Assembly (NCBI RefSeq): GCF_000010805.1
Contig: NC_012520.1
Span: forward strand, 248,001 to 312,000
Direction: 5' to 3'
From: Rhodococcus opacus B4
Lineage (GTDB): Bacteria; Actinomycetota; Actinomycetes; Mycobacteriales; Mycobacteriaceae
DNA length: 64,000 nt
Of the stretch, positions 10,084 to 19,347 are shown piece after piece. The notes under the pieces are model-generated. The model did not search any database. It saw nothing but the letters and a program-made list of their open reading frames with translations, and was not told the DNA's origin. Both the position numbers and the translations under genes were made by a program. Positions within the stretch are counted from its first letter, which is position 1. The number at the start of each line of letters is the position of its first letter.

Positions 10084-11124
10084 TCACAGGTCGTACGCCA
10101 CGGCCTTCCCGAGAACGCGGATGCCGACACGGTCGCCGGGGGTGAGGGCGGTGGCGCCGAAGCGGCGGACGGTGACCCGTTCGGGCACCTCCCCGTCCCC
10201 GGTGTCGAGGCGGATACCGAGCAACATCTCCGACCCCAGATAGTCGACGTCGACGACCGTCCCGGATACACCGGCACCATCGGTGGTCACCTCGATCTGC
10301 TCCGGCCGCAACATCACTCGGGCGCTCCCGTGGACGCCGTTCGAGGCCACGGCCACGTCGCCGAGGGCGCAGCGGGCGCGGCCGCCGTCGACGTGCGCCG
10401 ACAGGACGACGGCGTCGCCGATGAACTCCGCGGTGGGGACGTCGATCGGGGTGGAATAGATTTCGCGTGGGGTACCGATCTGGGCGAGCCGGCCCGCACT
10501 CATCACCGCAACCCGGTCGGCGAACGACAGCGCCTCGGGCTGGTCGTGGGTGACGAGGATGGTGGTGATCGCGGCCTTCGCGAGGACGTCGGCGACGATC
10601 CTGCGGGTGTTCGCCCGCAGGCCGGCGTCCAGTGCGGAGAACGGCTCGTCGAGCAGCATGAGTTCGGGTTCGCGGGCCAGTGCCCGCGCGAGTGCCACCC
10701 GCTGCTGCTGCCCGCCTGAGAGCTGGTCGGGTCGCCGGGACGCGTACGACGAATCCAGCGACACCATCTCGAGCAGCTCGGCGATCCTCGCCGGGGTGCG
10801 GGCCCGGCGGGGCAGCCCGAACCCGACATTCGCGCCGACCGTGGCGTGCGGGAACAGCGCACCGTCCTGGGCGACGTACCCCACCGACCGCCGGTGCGCG
10901 GGCGTCCAGCCACCGCCCGCGACGACCCGGCCGGCCAGTGCGATGGTGCCGGCATCGGGCTTCTCGAAGCCGGCGATCAGGCGGAGCAGGGTGGTCTTGC
11001 CGCAACCGGACGGTCCGACGATCGCCGTCGTGGATCCGGCCTCGACGGCGAATGCGACGTGCCGGAGGATCGCCGCGGCGCCGAACGACTTGTCGAGTCC
11101 GTCCACTTCGAGTGCGTATGTCAT
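10084..11124 (-). CDS. fbpC: Ferric iron ABC transporter ATP-binding protein (FbpC-like)
   Basis: The 346-residue ATPase has Walker A (GPSGCGKTTLLR), the signature LSGGQQQRVALARAL, Walker B (LMLLDEPFSALD), a TILVTHDQ switch region and a C-terminal TOBE-like regulatory domain (RPEQIEVTTDGAG). This is the FbpC/PotA layout for import of ferric iron or polyamines. Together with the permease and a tyrosine-rich binding protein upstream, iron is most likely. Its ATG overlaps the permease stop by 4 bp. Confidence 0.9.
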   Translation of the reverse strand: MTYALEVDGLDKSFGAAAILRHVAFAVEAGSTTAIVGPSGCGKTTLLRLIAGFEKPDAGTIALAGRVVAGGGWTPAHRRSVGYVAQDGALFPHATVGANVGFGLPRRARTPARIAELLEMVSLDSSYASRRPDQLSGGQQQRVALARALAREPELMLLDEPFSALDAGLRANTRRIVADVLAKAAITTILVTHDQPEALSFADRVAVMSAGRLAQIGTPREIYSTPIDVPTAEFIGDAVVLSAHVDGGRARCALGDVAVASNGVHGSARVMLRPEQIEVTTDGAGVSGTVVDVDYLGSEMLLGIRLDTGDGEVPERVTVRRFGATALTPGDRVGIRVLGKAVAYDL

Positions 11125-12686
11125 AGTCCCGCTACCTTTTTCGACTGGGAGAAGAGCACGTAGGTCATGGGCAGCGACAGCACGATCATGATCAGCGCGT
11201 ACGGTGCGGCGCCGGCGTAGTCGATCTCGCTGCTCAGCGACCAGAACTGCATGGACAGGGTGCGGGTGCCGGTGGGCGCGAGCAGGAGGGTGGCGGTCAG
11301 CTCGTTGACGATCCCCAGGAACACCAGGGCCCCGCCCGCCGCGGTGGCCGGGGCGGCCAGCCGCAGCGTGACCCGGACGAAGGCCGACAGCGGTGAGAGA
11401 CCCAGCGACTGCGCCGCCTCCTCGAGCCCGACGGGCGCCTGCGCGAGACCGGCCCGCAGGTTCACCAGCGCACGCGGCAGGAAGAGCAGCGCGTAGCCCG
11501 CGATCACGACGGCGACGCTCTGATAGAGCGGATGGAGGTAGCGGATGGAGACGGTGACCAATGCCAGTGCCACCACGATGCCGGGCAGCGAACTCGAGAT
11601 GTAGGTGCCGCCCTCGAGGAAGCGGCTGAACCGGCCGGGGTGGCGGATCGAGATCCAGGCGATCGGGAAGGCGACTACACACGTCACGACGGCGCCGGCG
11701 ATGCCGAACCCGAGAGTCTGCACCAGCGCGGACGCGACGGCGTCCCATTCCCAGACCGCGCTCCCGCCGATGACGAGCCACCGCACGACACTGACGACCG
11801 GGACACCGACGGACGCCGCGATCAGCACCCCGAGGAACAGAAGCACGATCGGTGAGTACCGCCAGCCGAGTTCGGCGGGCACGGCCCGGCGGGCCGCACC
11901 CGACCCGATCCGGGCGTATCGGGCGCTGCCACGGACGACCGATTCGATCACCAGCAAGGTGAGGCAGAGCAGCACCAGGACACCGGCGAGCATGGTCGCC
12001 GCGGTTCCGTTGAACGTCGACTGGTACTGCTCGAAGATCGCCGTCGTGAACGTGTCGAACCTGATGAACACGAATGCGCCGTATTCGGCGAGCAGGTGCA
12101 GCGAGACCAACAGTGCCCCACCCGCGATGGCCAGCCGCAGCTGCGGCACCACGACGCGGAAGAACACCGCCCACGGCCCCACACCGAGGGCCCGCGCCGA
12201 TTCCTCGACGGCCGGATCCAGCCGGCGCAGTGTCGCGGCCGCCGGAATGTAGACGAGAGGGAAGTACGAGAGGGTCGCGATGAGAACACCGCCGCGCAGC
12301 CCGCCGAGGGAGGGAATCGCCGTCACCCAGGAATAGCTGTTCACGAACGCCGGAACAGCCAGAGGCACCGCGAGAAGCACCGCCCACACCTTCGCACCCG
12401 GCACCCGCGTGCGCTCGACGAGCCAGGCGGCGAGGACGCCGAGGACGACACAGATCGGCACCGTAACCACGACCAACAACACGGTGTTCGAGAGCAATTC
12501 GCGTACCCGCGGGCGGAACAGCAGCGCCGACGCGGTGTCCCAGCCCGTCGCGATGCTCTGCACCATCACGTAGCCGAGCGGAATGAACGACGCGGCCACC
12601 ACGATCACCGCGGCGACCGCCAATGGGAAGGGCAGGTGCGGCCGGGCGGTCGGGCGACGCGCCGTGGCCGCGTCGCCCGACCGCAC
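11121..12686 (-). CDS. fbpB: Ferric iron ABC transporter permease (FbpB-like)
   Basis: The 521-residue protein has about 12 predicted membrane helices in two halves, each with an EAA-type loop (EESARALGVGPWAVFFRVVVP and LEEAAQSLGLSPLSAFVRVT regions). This is the internally duplicated permease of FbpB/CysT-like ferric transporters. It lies 20 bp after the binding-protein gene and overlaps the ATPase gene. It should move iron across the plasma membrane as a single two-fold permease. Confidence 0.92.
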   Translation of the reverse strand: MRSGDAATARRPTARPHLPFPLAVAAVIVVAASFIPLGYVMVQSIATGWDTASALLFRPRVRELLSNTVLLVVVTVPICVVLGVLAAWLVERTRVPGAKVWAVLLAVPLAVPAFVNSYSWVTAIPSLGGLRGGVLIATLSYFPLVYIPAAATLRRLDPAVEESARALGVGPWAVFFRVVVPQLRLAIAGGALLVSLHLLAEYGAFVFIRFDTFTTAIFEQYQSTFNGTAATMLAGVLVLLCLTLLVIESVVRGSARYARIGSGAARRAVPAELGWRYSPIVLLFLGVLIAASVGVPVVSVVRWLVIGGSAVWEWDAVASALVQTLGFGIAGAVVTCVVAFPIAWISIRHPGRFSRFLEGGTYISSSLPGIVVALALVTVSIRYLHPLYQSVAVVIAGYALLFLPRALVNLRAGLAQAPVGLEEAAQSLGLSPLSAFVRVTLRLAAPATAAGGALVFLGIVNELTATLLLAPTGTRTLSMQFWSLSSEIDYAGAAPYALIMIVLSLPMTYVLFSQSKKVAGL

Positions 12687-12706: not shown

Positions 12707-13744
12707 TCAGAGCAAACCGGCTTCCGTCATCAGCTCGGTGACCTGCGGGCTGTTGAGCTTCGCAGGGTCGACCTGCGGGGCCTGCAGTTCAGCGAGGGGA
12801 ACGAGCTTCGGGTTCGCCGGCACGCCACTGCCCACCGTGTACTCGAACGACGTCCCGGTCTGCAGGACCTCCTGCCCCTTCTGACCGGTGACGAACTTCA
12901 GGAACTGCTGCGCCGCATCCTGCTTCGTGCTGGACTGCAGGACGCCACCACCGGAGACGCTGACGAATGCTCCCGGATCCTCGTTCTTGAAGTAGTGGAG
13001 AGCGACGTTGTTGCTGTTCTCTCCGGTCTTGGCCTGATCACCGAACCAGTAGTAGTGGTAGATCACACCGCCCGGGATTTCGCCGGCGTTGACGGCCTTC
13101 ATCACCGTGCCGTTGCCCTTGTAGGTGCGGACGTTCTCCTTCATCCCGGCCAGCCACTGCCGGGTGGCGTCCTCACCCTTCAGCTCGAGCAGTGCGCTGA
13201 CGATGGCCTGGAAATCGGCCCCCGACGGGGACGCCGCCCAGCGGTCCTTCCACGCGGGATCCTGCAGGTCGAGCAGCGACTTCGGCAGCTGGTCTGGCAG
13301 CATGTCCTTGTTGTAGGCGAAGACGGTGGAACGGGCCGCGATGCCGGTCCACTTGCCGGACGACGGCCGGTACTGGCCCGGGACCTGGTCAAGGACATCC
13401 CGGTGCACGTCGGCGAAGAGCCCGGCGTTCTCCACCAGCGTCATGGCCGGGGAGTTCTCGGTGAGGAACACGTCGGCCGGCGACTGGTCACCCTCGGCCA
13501 CGAGCTGGTTGCCGAGTTCGGTGTCACTGCCGTTGCGCAGTTCCACCTCGATGCCGGTCTCCGCTGTGAAGGCGTCGGCCCATTCCTGGGTCAACGATTC
13601 GTGCTGGGCGTTGTACACGGTGATCTGGTTGGCGGCGCCGGAGTCGGTGCCGTTGTCCGAACCGGAATCCGAGCACCCCGCCACCGTCAGCACCGCGGCG
13701 GTGGCGAGCGCCACCCCCGACATCAGTCCGATCCGCATCCTCAT
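12707..13744 (-). CDS. fbpA: Iron ABC transporter substrate-binding lipoprotein (FbpA-like)
   Basis: The 345-residue lipoprotein has signal MRMRIGLMSGVALATAAVLT and lipobox VAGC. The mature part is a bacterial type-1 extracellular binding fold starting ITVYNAQHESLTQEWADAF. A paired-tyrosine segment, VIYHYYWFG, matches the adjacent tyrosines that coordinate Fe(III) in FbpA/FutA proteins. First gene of fbpABC, preceded by an IdeR-like box at 13805-13823, consistent with iron repression. Confidence 0.9.
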   Translation of the reverse strand: MRMRIGLMSGVALATAAVLTVAGCSDSGSDNGTDSGAANQITVYNAQHESLTQEWADAFTAETGIEVELRNGSDTELGNQLVAEGDQSPADVFLTENSPAMTLVENAGLFADVHRDVLDQVPGQYRPSSGKWTGIAARSTVFAYNKDMLPDQLPKSLLDLQDPAWKDRWAASPSGADFQAIVSALLELKGEDATRQWLAGMKENVRTYKGNGTVMKAVNAGEIPGGVIYHYYWFGDQAKTGENSNNVALHYFKNEDPGAFVSVSGGGVLQSSTKQDAAQQFLKFVTGQKGQEVLQTGTSFEYTVGSGVPANPKLVPLAELQAPQVDPAKLNSPQVTELMTEAGLL

Positions 13745-13804: not shown

Positions 13805-13823
13805 GCAGGATTGGCAAACCTAA
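13805..13823 (-). promoter_or_regulatory. IdeR/DtxR-like iron box upstream of fbpABC
   Basis: Read on the minus strand, the 19-bp TTAGGTTTGCCAATCCTGC matches the IdeR consensus TTAGGTTAGSCTAACCTAA at about 14 of 19 positions, with an intact left half. It is 61 bp upstream of the fbpA start, a normal position for iron-dependent repression. Confidence 0.6.
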
Positions 13824-14047: not shown

Positions 14048-16699
14048 TCACCCAACGTCGCTCCTGACATGCCTGTGATCAATGCGCCCGTCGATCGGTG
14101 GGCGCTTGTCTCGTTGCCGTGACGCGCAGGTTCGAACCAATAACGATGCGATCCGGTTCCGATCAGATTCCGAACGCACGACGCCGGGCCGTCGGCACAG
14201 GCCGAGTACGAATGTCACCGCCCGCCAGTAGAGGATGCCGACCACAATCGATAGCGCCAGCGCCAACCAGGGATGGTCGTCGCGCAGCGGCAGATACACC
14301 TGGAAATGTGTCAGGTAGATGTAGAGGGACGCACTCGCCAACACCCCTGCCACTCGGCTCAGCACCATGGGGCAGGGAACGGATTTGAGCCACACCAGCA
14401 GGCAGAGCCCACCGACGACGATGATTTCCCGTCGAGTCTCGCCGAAGAAGAACCCGGGAACCGTGGCCACGACCACCGCGGTGACCCAGAGTCGCTGCCA
14501 GATGGTCGTCGACTTGGCGGCGGCCCAGCCGAGAGCGAACAACCAGAAGACCACCGACGCGGTCAGGATGCGATTCCGGCTGTCGTCGACATCGACCAGT
14601 CCGTACCGGGTGAGCAGGCCGATAGCCACGAACCCCATCGCGAACCAGAACGGGTGCCTGCGCTCGATGCGGTCGACGAGCGGTATGTAGAGCACCGCGG
14701 CGAGGACGAGCACGATGTACACGATCGCCTCGACGAACCAGTATCTCCACTCGGCGGACCACCCGTCCGGACCGAAGATTCCGTTGAGCAGGAACGCACT
14801 GGTGATGCGGTAGTCCCCGGTGAGGGCGATGACGGATCCGATCCACACCATGCTGGGAACGGCGATCCGGGCGACGCTCCCGAGGGTGTGGCGGACGCGT
14901 TCGGTCCGTTCGGCGGTGCCGAGGTGGAACCGGGCGAAGTTGTAGCCGGCGACCCCGAGGAGCACGTGCGCTCCGCCGAGCAGCGTGAACAGGTGAATGT
15001 GCGAGCCCGCGATCAGCACGATCGCGACCGCGCGGAGCAGCACGTTGGTTTCCATCCTCCGCCACCGGCGTCGCCGCGGAGCCGGTGCGAAGTCCCCGAC
15101 AGGCGTGGTGTGCCAGTTCTCGGGGAGGTGGCCGAGCATCTCCTCGAGTCGCAGGGACATCCGCACGTAGGACAGGGAGTCGCCGCCCAGGCTCACGAAG
15201 GTGCTGTCGTCGGTGACGTGCGTGCAGTGGAGGATCTCGGCATACAGCGCCCTTACGGCGCCGGTGTCGGGGCCTGTGGTCGATTGCGTGGCCATCGGGG
15301 GTTCGGACGCGTGTGCCAGCTCGGCGACGGCGCGGAGGTCGGGTTTTCCCGTCGAGGTCCGCGGAAGCTCGTCGACGGGGAACACCCGGATGGCCGCGAC
15401 GGGAAGACCCGAGGCCCGGGCGGTCGCGTGCCGGACCGTGTCCACATCGCCGCAGTGCTGGACGGCCACGATCAGTTCGTCCGTGCCGCCCGCGCAGCAG
15501 GCCGTCAGCCCGTGCTGCGCGAGGGCCGACTCGACGTGCTGCAGGTCGATCCGCAGTCCGAAGACCTTGGCGAATCGGCTGCGGCGACCGACCACCTCGT
15601 ACAACGCGTCACCCGTCTGCCGGGCGAGGTCACCGGTCCGGAGTTCGCCGCCGAGGGTGTCACCGAGGCGGAGGTCGTCGGGGGTGTGGGCGTAGCCGAG
15701 CATCACGTTCGGCCCCGCGTAGATCAGCTCGCCGGCACCGTCCGGGGCGTCGGCGACCGGTTCGAGCCGGAAGGATCCGCCGGGAATCGGCCGGCCGATC
15801 GACTGCGGGTGGGTGGCGGCGAGTTCCGGTGGTAGGTACGCCATCCGGGCGGTCGCCTCGGTCTGCCCGTACATGACGAACAACTCCCAGCCCCGCCGTC
15901 GACCCAGATCCGCGTAGGCCCGCACCCGGTCCGGTGCGAGCCGTCCGCCGGCCTGCGTGATGTATCGCAGGTCGGGCAGATCCAGTTCGTCGAACCCGAT
16001 CCGGTCGAGGAGATCGAAGGTGTAGGGCACACCCGCGAAGCTGGTGCCGCGGTGGGCCTTGAAGAGGTCCCAGAACCCGGGGTCGGTGACCGAGTGGGTC
16101 GTGAGGATCAGGGCGGCGCCGCGGAGCAGGTGGCTGTGGATGACTGATAACCCGTAGCAGTAGTGCATGGGCAGCGTAGTCACAGCACGGTCGGTGTCGC
16201 GGATGTCGAGGTATTCCGCGATCGACTCGGCATTGGCCTGCACGTTGCGGTGCGAGAGGCGGACGAGTTTCGGTGATCCGGTTGATCCGGAGGTGCTCAG
16301 CAGCAGCGCGAGGTCGGGGTGCAGCAGGTGCACGGAGCACTCACGGAGCTCCTCGACCACCGTGCGCCCGTCGGCGCTGCGCACCACCACGTCGGGTCGG
16401 TACGCGGCGATCAGGGCCTCGAGGCTGTCGGGATTGTCGCCCGGTGCCAGCAGCACCGGATGCCCGGCGAACAGGGCCGAGAGATAGGTGACGACCAGAT
16501 CAACCTCGTTGCTGCCGGCGACCAGCACCAGACGACGGGTCCCGCCGAGCCGTGAGGCCTTCCGCTCGACGCGTTCTGCCAGTTCACGGTAGGTGACCGT
16601 CTCGCCCGGAGTAATCAGCGCCAGAGAGTCACCGAATCTTCCCAACACGCGCACGAAACGCACACCGAAGCGCTCTAGATGGAAGGACGAGCTGGACAC
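14048..16699 (-). CDS. Adenylation - carrier - membrane acyltransferase fusion protein
   Basis: The 883-residue protein combines three units. Residues of about 15-470 are an AMP-forming adenylation domain with LLSTSGSTGSPKLV, MYGQTEAT and the terminal STGKPD lysine. Residues of about 490-560 are a carrier domain with FVSLGGDSLSYVRM, whose Ser is the phosphopantetheine site. Residues of about 580-850 are a multi-pass acyltransferase-3-like domain with GSHIHLF and roughly ten hydrophobic helices. The likely logic is to activate an acid, load it on the carrier and transfer it to an acceptor at the membrane. The substrate is unknown. An IdeR-like box precedes it and the iron importer follows, suggesting an iron-responsive product such as a siderophore or lipid, but that is inference. 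Confidence 0.85.
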   Translation of the reverse strand: MSSSSFHLERFGVRFVRVLGRFGDSLALITPGETVTYRELAERVERKASRLGGTRRLVLVAGSNEVDLVVTYLSALFAGHPVLLAPGDNPDSLEALIAAYRPDVVVRSADGRTVVEELRECSVHLLHPDLALLLSTSGSTGSPKLVRLSHRNVQANAESIAEYLDIRDTDRAVTTLPMHYCYGLSVIHSHLLRGAALILTTHSVTDPGFWDLFKAHRGTSFAGVPYTFDLLDRIGFDELDLPDLRYITQAGGRLAPDRVRAYADLGRRRGWELFVMYGQTEATARMAYLPPELAATHPQSIGRPIPGGSFRLEPVADAPDGAGELIYAGPNVMLGYAHTPDDLRLGDTLGGELRTGDLARQTGDALYEVVGRRSRFAKVFGLRIDLQHVESALAQHGLTACCAGGTDELIVAVQHCGDVDTVRHATARASGLPVAAIRVFPVDELPRTSTGKPDLRAVAELAHASEPPMATQSTTGPDTGAVRALYAEILHCTHVTDDSTFVSLGGDSLSYVRMSLRLEEMLGHLPENWHTTPVGDFAPAPRRRRWRRMETNVLLRAVAIVLIAGSHIHLFTLLGGAHVLLGVAGYNFARFHLGTAERTERVRHTLGSVARIAVPSMVWIGSVIALTGDYRITSAFLLNGIFGPDGWSAEWRYWFVEAIVYIVLVLAAVLYIPLVDRIERRHPFWFAMGFVAIGLLTRYGLVDVDDSRNRILTASVVFWLFALGWAAAKSTTIWQRLWVTAVVVATVPGFFFGETRREIIVVGGLCLLVWLKSVPCPMVLSRVAGVLASASLYIYLTHFQVYLPLRDDHPWLALALSIVVGILYWRAVTFVLGLCRRPGVVRSESDRNRIASLLVRTCASRQRDKRPPIDGRIDHRHVRSDVG

Positions 16700-16711
16700 C
16701 GACAGAGTCTA

Positions 16712-16730
16712 TAAGGCATGCCGTACCTAA
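16712..16730 (-). promoter_or_regulatory. IdeR/DtxR-like box upstream of the fusion gene
   Basis: On the minus strand TTAGGTACGGCATGCCTTA matches the IdeR pattern at about 13 of 19 positions and keeps TTAGG, the central GGC and CCT. It lies 13 bp before the ATG at 16699 in an AT-rich promoter pocket, so binding would block transcription. It is weaker in number of matches than the fbp box but well placed. Confidence 0.5.
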
Positions 16731-16998: not shown

Positions 16999-17054
16999 AG
17001 TGTGTGCGTGTCCGTCATCGTTTCGTTATCTCAACTCCGGCAAGGAACGCGATC

Positions 17055-18008
17055 TTGGCACGTCACCGCAAGCCCGAACCCGATCTCGACGTGTGCTGGG
17101 ATCACGAGAACATCACGACGGCCGCCGTGGGTGCGGTGACTTCTGCCCCCGCGGTCGACCCGCACCCGGCCGCCGGCGAGGGACAGGCCGAGACGGGGGA
17201 GTGGGCGGCCGTTCCGGCCGCCGCGCCGCACGCTCCGCGGCACCGCCGCGGCGGTGCGCATCGGCAACCCACGCCGGCCCGGCCCGGCGGGCGGGCGATG
17301 GTGCTGTCTATGGCCACCGGGGCGCTGCTCGCCGCCGGAACCTCGACCGCGCACGCCGCACCGGCCGACCCGACCCCGCAGGCCTCGGAGGTGGCCCCGC
17401 AACCCGCACCCGATCCGATAGCCGCGGCCCTCGCCGCGGTGCCGCAGGTGCTGCAGATCCCCGAGACTGCGGAGCTGTCGAAGTTCACAGATCAGCTGGC
17501 GAAGGCACGGGAGCGGGAGGCCGAACGCCTCGCCCGCGAGGCAGCCGACCGGGCCGCCCGGACTCCCCAGGCCACCCCGGGGAGCGGCGGAGGGTTCCTC
17601 CGACCGCCGGGAACCTCCATCGCACCGGTCAGTGGAACCCTCACCTCGAACTACGGGGCGCGCTGGGGCACCACCCACTACGGGCTCGATATCGCCAACG
17701 ACATCGGCACCCCGATCGTGTCGGTCACCGACGGCACCGTGCTCGAGGCCGGACCCGCCTCCGGGTTCGGCATGTGGGTGCGGATCCTGCAGGACGACGG
17801 CACCGTCGGCGTCTTCGGGCACATCAACGAAGCCCTGGTCACGGCGGGGCAGAAGGTCCGGGCGGGTCAGCAGATCGCCACCGTGGGCAATCGTGGGCAG
17901 TCGACGGGCCCGCATCTGCATTACGAGGTCTGGCAGGCCGACGGAATGAAGACCGATCCGATGGCGTGGCTGCGGGCGCGGGGCATCAACATGACATCAT
18001 CCGACTGA
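17055..18008 (+). CDS. M23-family (LytM) peptidase, exported
   Basis: The 317-residue protein has a long charged N terminus, one membrane/signal segment (VLSMATGALLAAGTSTAHAA), a Glu/Arg-rich predicted helix (AKAREREAERLAREAADRAA) and a C-terminal M23 domain. The zinc ligands are visible in HYGLDIAND and HLHYE. M23 enzymes cut peptidoglycan peptides or act as cell-wall scaffolds. I chose TTG at 17055 because AAGGA sits 8 bp upstream; a GTG at 17004 lies inside the promoter. It is followed after 35 bp by blaI and shares its operator, so wall turnover may be tied to this regulon. Confidence 0.85.
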   Translation: MARHRKPEPDLDVCWDHENITTAAVGAVTSAPAVDPHPAAGEGQAETGEWAAVPAAAPHAPRHRRGGAHRQPTPARPGGRAMVLSMATGALLAAGTSTAHAAPADPTPQASEVAPQPAPDPIAAALAAVPQVLQIPETAELSKFTDQLAKAREREAERLAREAADRAARTPQATPGSGGGFLRPPGTSIAPVSGTLTSNYGARWGTTHYGLDIANDIGTPIVSVTDGTVLEAGPASGFGMWVRILQDDGTVGVFGHINEALVTAGQKVRAGQQIATVGNRGQSTGPHLHYEVWQADGMKTDPMAWLRARGINMTSSD

Positions 18009-18043
18009 GTGATCGGACAGATTTTCGGTACGTGAGGAGGACC

Positions 18044-18403
18044 ATGAAGGGACTCGGTGGCCTCGAAGCCGAGGTGATGGACATCCTGTGGTCCTCGGCC
18101 GAGCCGTTGTCGGTGCACGATCTGCTCGACACGCTCAGCGAGCGCAAACAGTTGGCGTACACCACGATTCTCACGGTCGTGACCCATCTGCACGAGAAGG
18201 GCTGGGTGGAGCGGGAGAAGCGCAGCCGCGCCTACTTCTATTTCCCGGTGCGCTCCCGCGAGGAAGCGACGTCGCAGGCACTGCGGGAATTGCTCGACAG
18301 CAGCAACGATTCCGCGGCGGTTCTGCTGCACTTCGCGGGCACGGTCTCCGAGACCGAGCAGGAAGCGTTGCGGCGGGGGCTGCGGAAGGGCCGCAAGAAG
18401 TGA
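18044..18403 (+). CDS. blaI: BlaI/MecI/CopY-family repressor
   Basis: The 119-residue protein is a typical BlaI: winged-helix segment LEAEVMDILWSS, recognition region YTTILTVVTHLHEKGWVE, wing EKRSRAYFYFP and a C-terminal dimer helix. BlaI/MecI repressors bind ACTA-type dyads and are inactivated by proteolysis through a BlaR1-type protease. It lacks the C-terminal Cys motif of enterococcal CopY, so direct copper sensing is not evident. ATG follows GAGGAGG. It overlaps the M56 gene by 4 bp. It is the natural reader of the six TACTA/TAGTA dyads in this window. Confidence 0.93.
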   Translation: MKGLGGLEAEVMDILWSSAEPLSVHDLLDTLSERKQLAYTTILTVVTHLHEKGWVEREKRSRAYFYFPVRSREEATSQALRELLDSSNDSAAVLLHFAGTVSETEQEALRRGLRKGRKK

Positions 18404-19347
18404 CCCTCGCGGCCGTGCTGCTGGTCGGCGCTGTCCTCGTGGCGGTCCTGGCCCCACCCGTGCTCGAAACCATGCCGTTCTCGGGGATCCGGCCCAACGT
18501 GGTGCTGGCGTTCTGGCTGGCGAGTATGGCCAGTGTGCTGTTCTTCGCGGGCTCGGCGGTGGTCGTCCTCGCCTGGCCGGACCACGCTCCGGCCGAGGGG
18601 GTGATCGAGACGATCGTGCGGTGCTTCTCCGCCGTTTCGCACACCGCTGCCCCCTGGATCGGGGCATCGTTGGTCGCCGCGGGCCTGATGGTCGGTGCGG
18701 GTGTGGTCGCCCGGGCCGTCTTCTTCGCCCGGCAGCAGTCCGTCTCCCGGTCCCACATGCAGGACTTTCACCGTGATGTGGTCGCGATCGTCGCCCGCAC
18801 CGAACAGGGCCATGACGACGTGATGTGGCTCGATCATCCACTGCCGATGGCCTATTCGGTTTCCGGGCGTCCCGGTTTCGTGGTGGCGACCGAGGGGCTG
18901 TCGTCGAGCCTGAGCGGTGTCGAACGCGACGCCGTTCTCGCCCACGAACGTGCCCATTTGAGCGGGCACCATCACCTGATCGTCGGTGTCGCCGACCTGC
19001 TGGCCCGGGTTCTGCCGATGGTGCCGCTCTTCGCCCGGTCTCCGCGGGCGATCAAGACCGTGATCGAGCTGGCCGCCGACGAGCAGGCTGCCCGGGTCAC
19101 CAGCGCGGCCGTGGTCAGCTCGGCGCTGTCCGTCGTGGCCGATGCCGCCCTGCCGACCCCGGCGTTCACGCTCGGGCTGGGCAACGACATGAACCTGCGC
19201 CTGTGGCGGCTGCGGCGGGCGCCGCACACCCGATTCTCCCGGCTGGCGTGCTGCGCGGCGGCCGCCGTGACGGTCACCGTGCCCGCGGTTGTCGCATTGA
19301 CGGTCGTGTCGGTGACGACCATGACTGCGTGCATCCTGCTGACCTGA
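18400..19347 (+). CDS. M56-family membrane protease (BlaR1-like, sensor domain absent)
   Basis: The 315-residue protein starts GTG within the blaI stop (GTGA overlap). It has three N-terminal hydrophobic helices, a cytoplasmic zinc-protease segment with HERAH at residues 182-186 followed by GHHH, and a final membrane helix. In BlaR1/MecR1 this core cleaves BlaI after signal. The penicillin-binding sensor domain of BlaR1 is missing here; homologues such as mycobacterial Rv1845c are also short. The signal is therefore unknown, and copper or respiratory stress is inferred from the target genes. Confidence 0.88.
   Translation: MTLAAVLLVGAVLVAVLAPPVLETMPFSGIRPNVVLAFWLASMASVLFFAGSAVVVLAWPDHAPAEGVIETIVRCFSAVSHTAAPWIGASLVAAGLMVGAGVVARAVFFARQQSVSRSHMQDFHRDVVAIVARTEQGHDDVMWLDHPLPMAYSVSGRPGFVVATEGLSSSLSGVERDAVLAHERAHLSGHHHLIVGVADLLARVLPMVPLFARSPRAIKTVIELAADEQAARVTSAAVVSSALSVVADAALPTPAFTLGLGNDMNLRLWRLRRAPHTRFSRLACCAAAAVTVTVPAVVALTVVSVTTMTACILLT

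Follow-up and report, generated by a model that had tools for sequence, protein, structure and literature searches.

Ordinary AT3 membrane acyltransferases carry an R-X10-H motif together with an RXXR motif in helix 3 (PMC9833829). In simulations of OafB, Arg74 of the RXXR motif and Arg14 hold the 3'-phosphate of CoA, with the acyl-CoA spanning the pore (PMC9833829), and enzymes of this type are thought to thread acyl-CoA across the membrane. HGSNAT and GWT1 are members of the transmembrane acyltransferase (TmAT) superfamily (PMC12423673). Among systems that activate acids, stand-alone acyl-ACP ligases use a free ACP, NRPS A-PCP didomains pair adenylation with a carrier, and Aas-type acyl-ACP synthetase/acyltransferases join acid activation and acyl transfer in a single polypeptide. 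To our knowledge, no dedicated ligase-carrier-acyltransferase has been described for the known Fbp systems of ferric-iron import. Papers on AT3 proteins say nothing of fusions to adenylation or carrier domains (PMC9558356, PMC9833829, PMC12423673), and the open literature yielded no account of an adenylation-carrier-AT3 architecture or of an experiment on such a protein, although subscription papers lay outside the search and a prior report is possible.

A gene of this architecture lies in the window, that is, the whole 64-kb stretch of DNA that was analysed, which comes from an 8.8-Mb Rhodococcus genome. It occupies positions 14048..16699 of the minus strand, begins with GTG and encodes 883 amino acids. 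R. opacus strain 9 has a 100% identical protein, encoded by a linear plasmid of 691 kb. The acid-activating AMP-binding domain (15320..16645, minus strand; about residues 19–460; Pfam 6e-47) contains K452, the A10 lysine, and has C181 in place of the amino-acid-binding Asp. It is followed by a carrier domain (15131..15265, minus strand; about residues 479–523; PP-binding, 8.5e-6), in which Ser508 stands in a GGDSL motif (codon 15176-15178), and by a membrane domain of AT3/TmAT fold (14180..15064, minus strand; about residues 546–840), which keeps R556-X10-H567, W654, Y795 and H798 and has lost RXXR. Ser508, K452, R556, H567 and W654 are invariant in an alignment of 32 full-length members of the family, which share the same architecture.

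The C-terminal part is a ten-helix, AT3-like membrane domain. Against the Acyl_transf_3 profile (PF01757), the window protein scores 22.6 bits, below the 31-bit cut-off, while 46 of 48 relatives match, the best at 9.7e-34. Sequence search of the domain against solved structures gave no match up to E 1. In VIA-align, its AlphaFold model (pLDDT 91) matched HGSNAT (Z 13.9) and GWT1 (Z 9.4), the best unrelated row reaching Z 5.0. Foldseek by itself placed HGSNAT at an E value of only 0.25, and the clear separation came from VIA-align. The earlier note had read an acid-activating, carrier and AT3-like membrane fusion from the sequence and knew of no characterised product for it. The fusion is borne out by Pfam, by the fold match and by relatives beyond the window genome, and no product was identified in the open papers searched.

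Comparison with the systems above shows what is shared and what is not. The fusion resembles AT3/TmAT proteins (OafB, OatA, HGSNAT, GWT1) in the ten-helix fold, the R-X10-H motif, a late Tyr and His, and the expected transfer across the membrane. It differs in having its own adenylation and carrier domains and a predicted iron control, and in lacking both RXXR and the Asp that precedes the motif Arg by three residues. Its adenylation pocket positions, including Met276 and Arg285, are mostly common to the stand-alone acyl-ACP ligases, which in contrast have no membrane domain and lie, as judged by eye, beside SDR and LuxE-/LuxC-like genes. The adenylation and carrier pair, the GGDSL serine and the A10 lysine are NRPS-like, yet no condensation or thioesterase domain is present and Asp235 is replaced by Cys or Ser. 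NCBIfam models of the Aas type match over the ligase part, whereas the soluble glycerolipid acyltransferase domain is missing and the transfer part is AT3-like.

The loss of RXXR distinguishes the fused domains from their free-standing counterparts. The comparison set comprised 34 AT3 sequences from actinobacterial genomes and two sphingomonad neighbours (two of them, L160 and L162, look mis-framed). R-X10-H is present, in the first helix, in all 48 fused relatives examined. However, the first Arg of RXXR occurs in none of these 48, against 32 of the 34 comparison proteins, and the second in 23 of 48, against 31 of 34. In CoA-dependent AT3 enzymes this motif lies at the cytoplasmic side of helix 3; the fusion lacks it and is not classed with them. 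The phosphopantetheine of a carrier arm is that of CoA, minus the nucleotide. Loss of the nucleotide dock is therefore what would be expected of an AT3 domain fed by a carrier arm, and the motif pattern is consistent with a donor borne by the fused carrier rather than by CoA. Similarly, the predicted AT3/TmAT fold and the RXXR loss agree with a transfer to an extracytoplasmic acceptor that may need no other modules. A natural, carrier-armed version without the CoA-docking motif would allow a direct test of how AT3 enzymes thread their donors.

The acid that is activated can be narrowed from the pocket residues, a check that the earlier note had named. In a hand alignment, the position of the Asp235 that marks alpha-amino-acid adenylation corresponds to C181, and is Cys in most Actinomycetota and Ser in the other branch, in all rows but one gapped one. 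Because Asp235 is replaced, an alpha-amino acid is an unlikely substrate, and the ‘aminoacyl’ group that had been entertained alongside an acyl group is correspondingly disfavoured. Thus, the pocket served to argue against alpha-amino acids and did not name the acid. Y182, S185, M276 and R285 are, again by hand alignment, common to the fusion and the stand-alone acyl-ACP ligases; a finer prediction was dropped because this pocket is common to ligases of uncharacterised substrate. Oxalate-CoA and o-succinylbenzoate-CoA ligases are among the solved adenylation folds that match best. The adenylation domain also has stand-alone relatives (L076–L104, approximately 36–48% identical) whose operons, judged by eye, encode LuxE-/LuxC-like proteins together with an SDR and a small ACP, some of them adjoining NeuB-like genes. 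These operons might represent an uncharacterised acyl-ACP pathway, perhaps for glycans.

A survey of plasmids, GTDB genomes and further genomes, of the kind the earlier note had proposed, gathered 73 full-architecture loci, among which L070 holds a partial gene and a few records cover the same DNA in part. Another two, L064 and L073, were initially scored as lacking the membrane domain yet encode it too, giving about 75 relatives. The gene is present in 7 of 28 genomes of the genus, the window genome included, and in 16 of 396 sampled Actinomycetota genomes. The family tree separates Actinomycetota from Proteobacteria with full support, and the proteobacterial members are alphaproteobacterial except for one Oceanospirillaceae genome. 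In one Rhodococcus genome, a second copy consists of the N-terminal part only (G005:C2:16172-16993, L017). In another (G016:C859, L014 and L016), the gene is split over two overlapping frames near the carrier/membrane junction, through a frameshift or a sequencing error.

Downstream of the fusion on the same strand lies an FbpABC operon: an FbpA-type ferric-iron-binding lipoprotein (12707..13744, minus strand), an FbpB-type permease (11121..12686, minus strand; its true start is probably somewhat downstream) and an FbpC-type ATPase (10084..11124, minus strand). FbpA is clearly related to two ferric-binding proteins, SfuA and YfuA (E 1e-136 to 1e-133), and has the tyrosine pair, in the form YHYY, that is seen in Fbp/Sfu importers. 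With its permease and ATPase in one operon, the set qualifies as an importer of that type. Outside close relatives, FbpABC is the only recurrent neighbour of the fusion in Actinomycetota. No receptor, exporter, release or iron-release gene, or siderophore cluster recurs beside it in the collected loci, unlike a classical siderophore locus.

This pairing has arisen or been lost repeatedly. The operon lies downstream or upstream of the fusion, or is divergent or convergent, and two FbpA subfamilies are involved (approximately 60% and 33% identical to the window FbpA), both matching ferric-binding structures. Mapped on the tree, adjacency requires 11 gains or losses, at least seven of them forced by well-supported branches; FbpABC is non-adjacent in 20 of 53 actinobacterial rows and adjacent in no proteobacterial row. 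In the 396-genome sample, FbpA is present in 13 of 16 genomes with the fusion and 105 of 380 without it (p 2e-5, not corrected for phylogeny). The difference persists when the only fusion genomes counted are those in which fusion and FbpA lie apart (7 of 10, compared with the 105 of 380; p 0.007, likewise uncorrected). Three fusion-carrying genomes of the sample, one with a broken fusion copy, are missing a detectable FbpA.

A predicted IdeR/DtxR-type box, TTAGGTACGGCATGCCTTA, lies 12 nt before the start codon of the fusion (16712..16730, minus strand). The exact canonical IdeR palindrome is absent from the window at up to three mismatches, and the box was consequently scored against a degenerate DtxR consensus, which it matches at 16 of 19 positions, the best score in the window. 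It forms an identical island in five Rhodococcus loci whose flanks are unlike. A second, weaker box, TTAGGTTTGCCAATCCTGC, is found upstream of fbpA (13805..13823, minus strand; 14 of 19) and can be recognised at every one of the eight Rhodococcus loci. In two Rhodococcus loci (L124 and L126), where the fusion is convergent with fbpABC and adjoins a tRNA-gene-like sequence, the fusion has no clear box and the one at fbpA is retained.

The position of the best 19-bp DtxR-type match was then sought in each of 53 actinobacterial loci. It fell in the promoter window of the fusion or of fbpA in 44 loci, where 1.9 were expected. Twelve column-permuted motifs used as controls did so in 1 to 9 loci. 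Since the loci are related, the nominal p of 1e-54 is not to be taken literally, and the contrast with permuted motifs is the fair measure. Several of the nine loci that miss look like miscalled starts. By its promoter box, the fusion would belong to an IdeR/DtxR regulon. The association with FbpABC and the iron boxes exceed chance.

Iron control seems to extend to the rhizobial relatives in a different form. The rhizobial regulator RirA binds TGA-N9-TCA (PMC6386902). This dyad occurs in the promoters of 9 of 11 rhizobial relatives, 39 to 63 bases upstream of the called start, and ranks first among the dyads tested at spacings of 3–15, the runner-up being found in five promoters. Its first half overlaps TTGAC, which may be a -35 element, so the second half bears most weight. 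No convincing Irr (ICE) box was seen in these promoters, nor any iron box in the sphingomonad and caulobacter relatives. As a RirA-type site replaces the DtxR box in rhizobia, iron control appears, from promoter motifs, to recur through unrelated regulators in two bacterial groups. The Sinorhizobium meliloti relative is SMc00592, assigned by gene order to ndk (SMc00595) and uvrC (SMc00602) rather than matched by sequence. It is listed as ‘Hypothetical, transmembrane protein’, with a swarming transcriptome pattern like that of the hmu and fhu iron genes, haem-uptake genes among them (PMC2848241). A rhizobial relative is thus already within a published iron-linked gene set, under that description only. 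The link to iron starvation suggested by the earlier note has in this way gained support from recurrent DtxR boxes, rhizobial sites and S. meliloti co-expression, and its two observations, the IdeR-like box and the FbpABC neighbourhood, hold well beyond one genome.

The domain make-up and the iron link are well supported, and transfer from carrier to acceptor across the membrane is likely. We give about an even chance to the idea that the fusion is an iron-starvation-induced, self-contained transmembrane acyltransferase whose acyl product helps to capture the ferric iron imported by FbpABC. The acid activated by the adenylation domain would be a small carboxylic one, probably not of the alpha-amino type, and would be loaded onto the phosphopantetheine arm of the fusion's own carrier. 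The carrier would then dock where the AT3 domain opens to the cytoplasm, its arm threading the membrane pore in place of CoA, and the acyl group would pass to an acceptor that is extracytoplasmic or in the membrane. Most likely, the product would aid ferric capture for FbpABC as a small or membrane-held iron ligand. Among the ideas on the product, this role leads, evenly poised, and envelope remodelling is its main rival. In its boldest and more tentative form, it would make the fusion a one-enzyme metallophore system: an acid is activated, the fusion's own carrier arm reaches through the AT3 pore and the iron ligand is assembled from it directly outside the membrane, which makes an exporter unnecessary; FbpABC takes up the iron, and unrelated regulators wire the gene to iron starvation in two phyla. 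Should the product prove to be an iron ligand, soil and root-nodule bacteria would have an iron route that the usual siderophore searches would probably miss, because it consists of a single gene.

Envelope remodelling, which we consider possible though somewhat doubtful, would have a surface glycan or glycolipid acylated at low iron, altering charge or permeability, with a product that is not an iron ligand. For AT3 proteins that have been characterised, the acyl acceptors are mostly extracytoplasmic sugars (PMC9558356), polysaccharide genes surround the sphingomonad and caulobacter relatives, and the stand-alone adenylation relatives sit in glycan-modification-like operons with free ACP. By itself, however, remodelling leaves unexplained the repeated pairing with two FbpABC subfamilies and the co-occurrence with non-adjacent FbpA. 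Tailoring of a siderophore or precursor made by an NRPS cluster elsewhere in the genome would suit the predicted iron control and the abundance of NRPS genes in the host genome, but seems improbable given that no siderophore cluster recurs near the fusion and that the transporter repeatedly seen beside it is of the Fbp ferric type rather than of a siderophore type. That this is an ordinary ligase-acyltransferase fusion, its iron boxes and FbpABC pairing coincidental, is hard to credit. The window box is imperfect, and a loose pattern search of the window genome, its pattern derived in part from the box, gave 3 places and the reversed control 2; this search was not counted as support for the box. 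Yet DtxR boxes recur at the same place across the phylum, a different iron box recurs in rhizobia, and co-expression with iron genes has been published (PMC2848241).

Several loci have surroundings of other kinds. Three full-length caulobacter and sphingomonad relatives (L061, L063 and L064) adjoin flippase, glycosyltransferase or plain AT3 genes, and L073 also has a plain AT3 gene adjacent. The three are possibly a glycan-modifying branch, which suggests that the fusion may perform a glycan-type acylation chemistry that was recruited elsewhere to iron starvation. On the other side of the fusion in the window, positions 17004-19347 hold an M23 peptidase gene, followed by genes for a BlaI-type repressor and an M56 peptidase, near ctaD; in the R. 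opacus plasmid record, this region has metal- and copper-related genes too.
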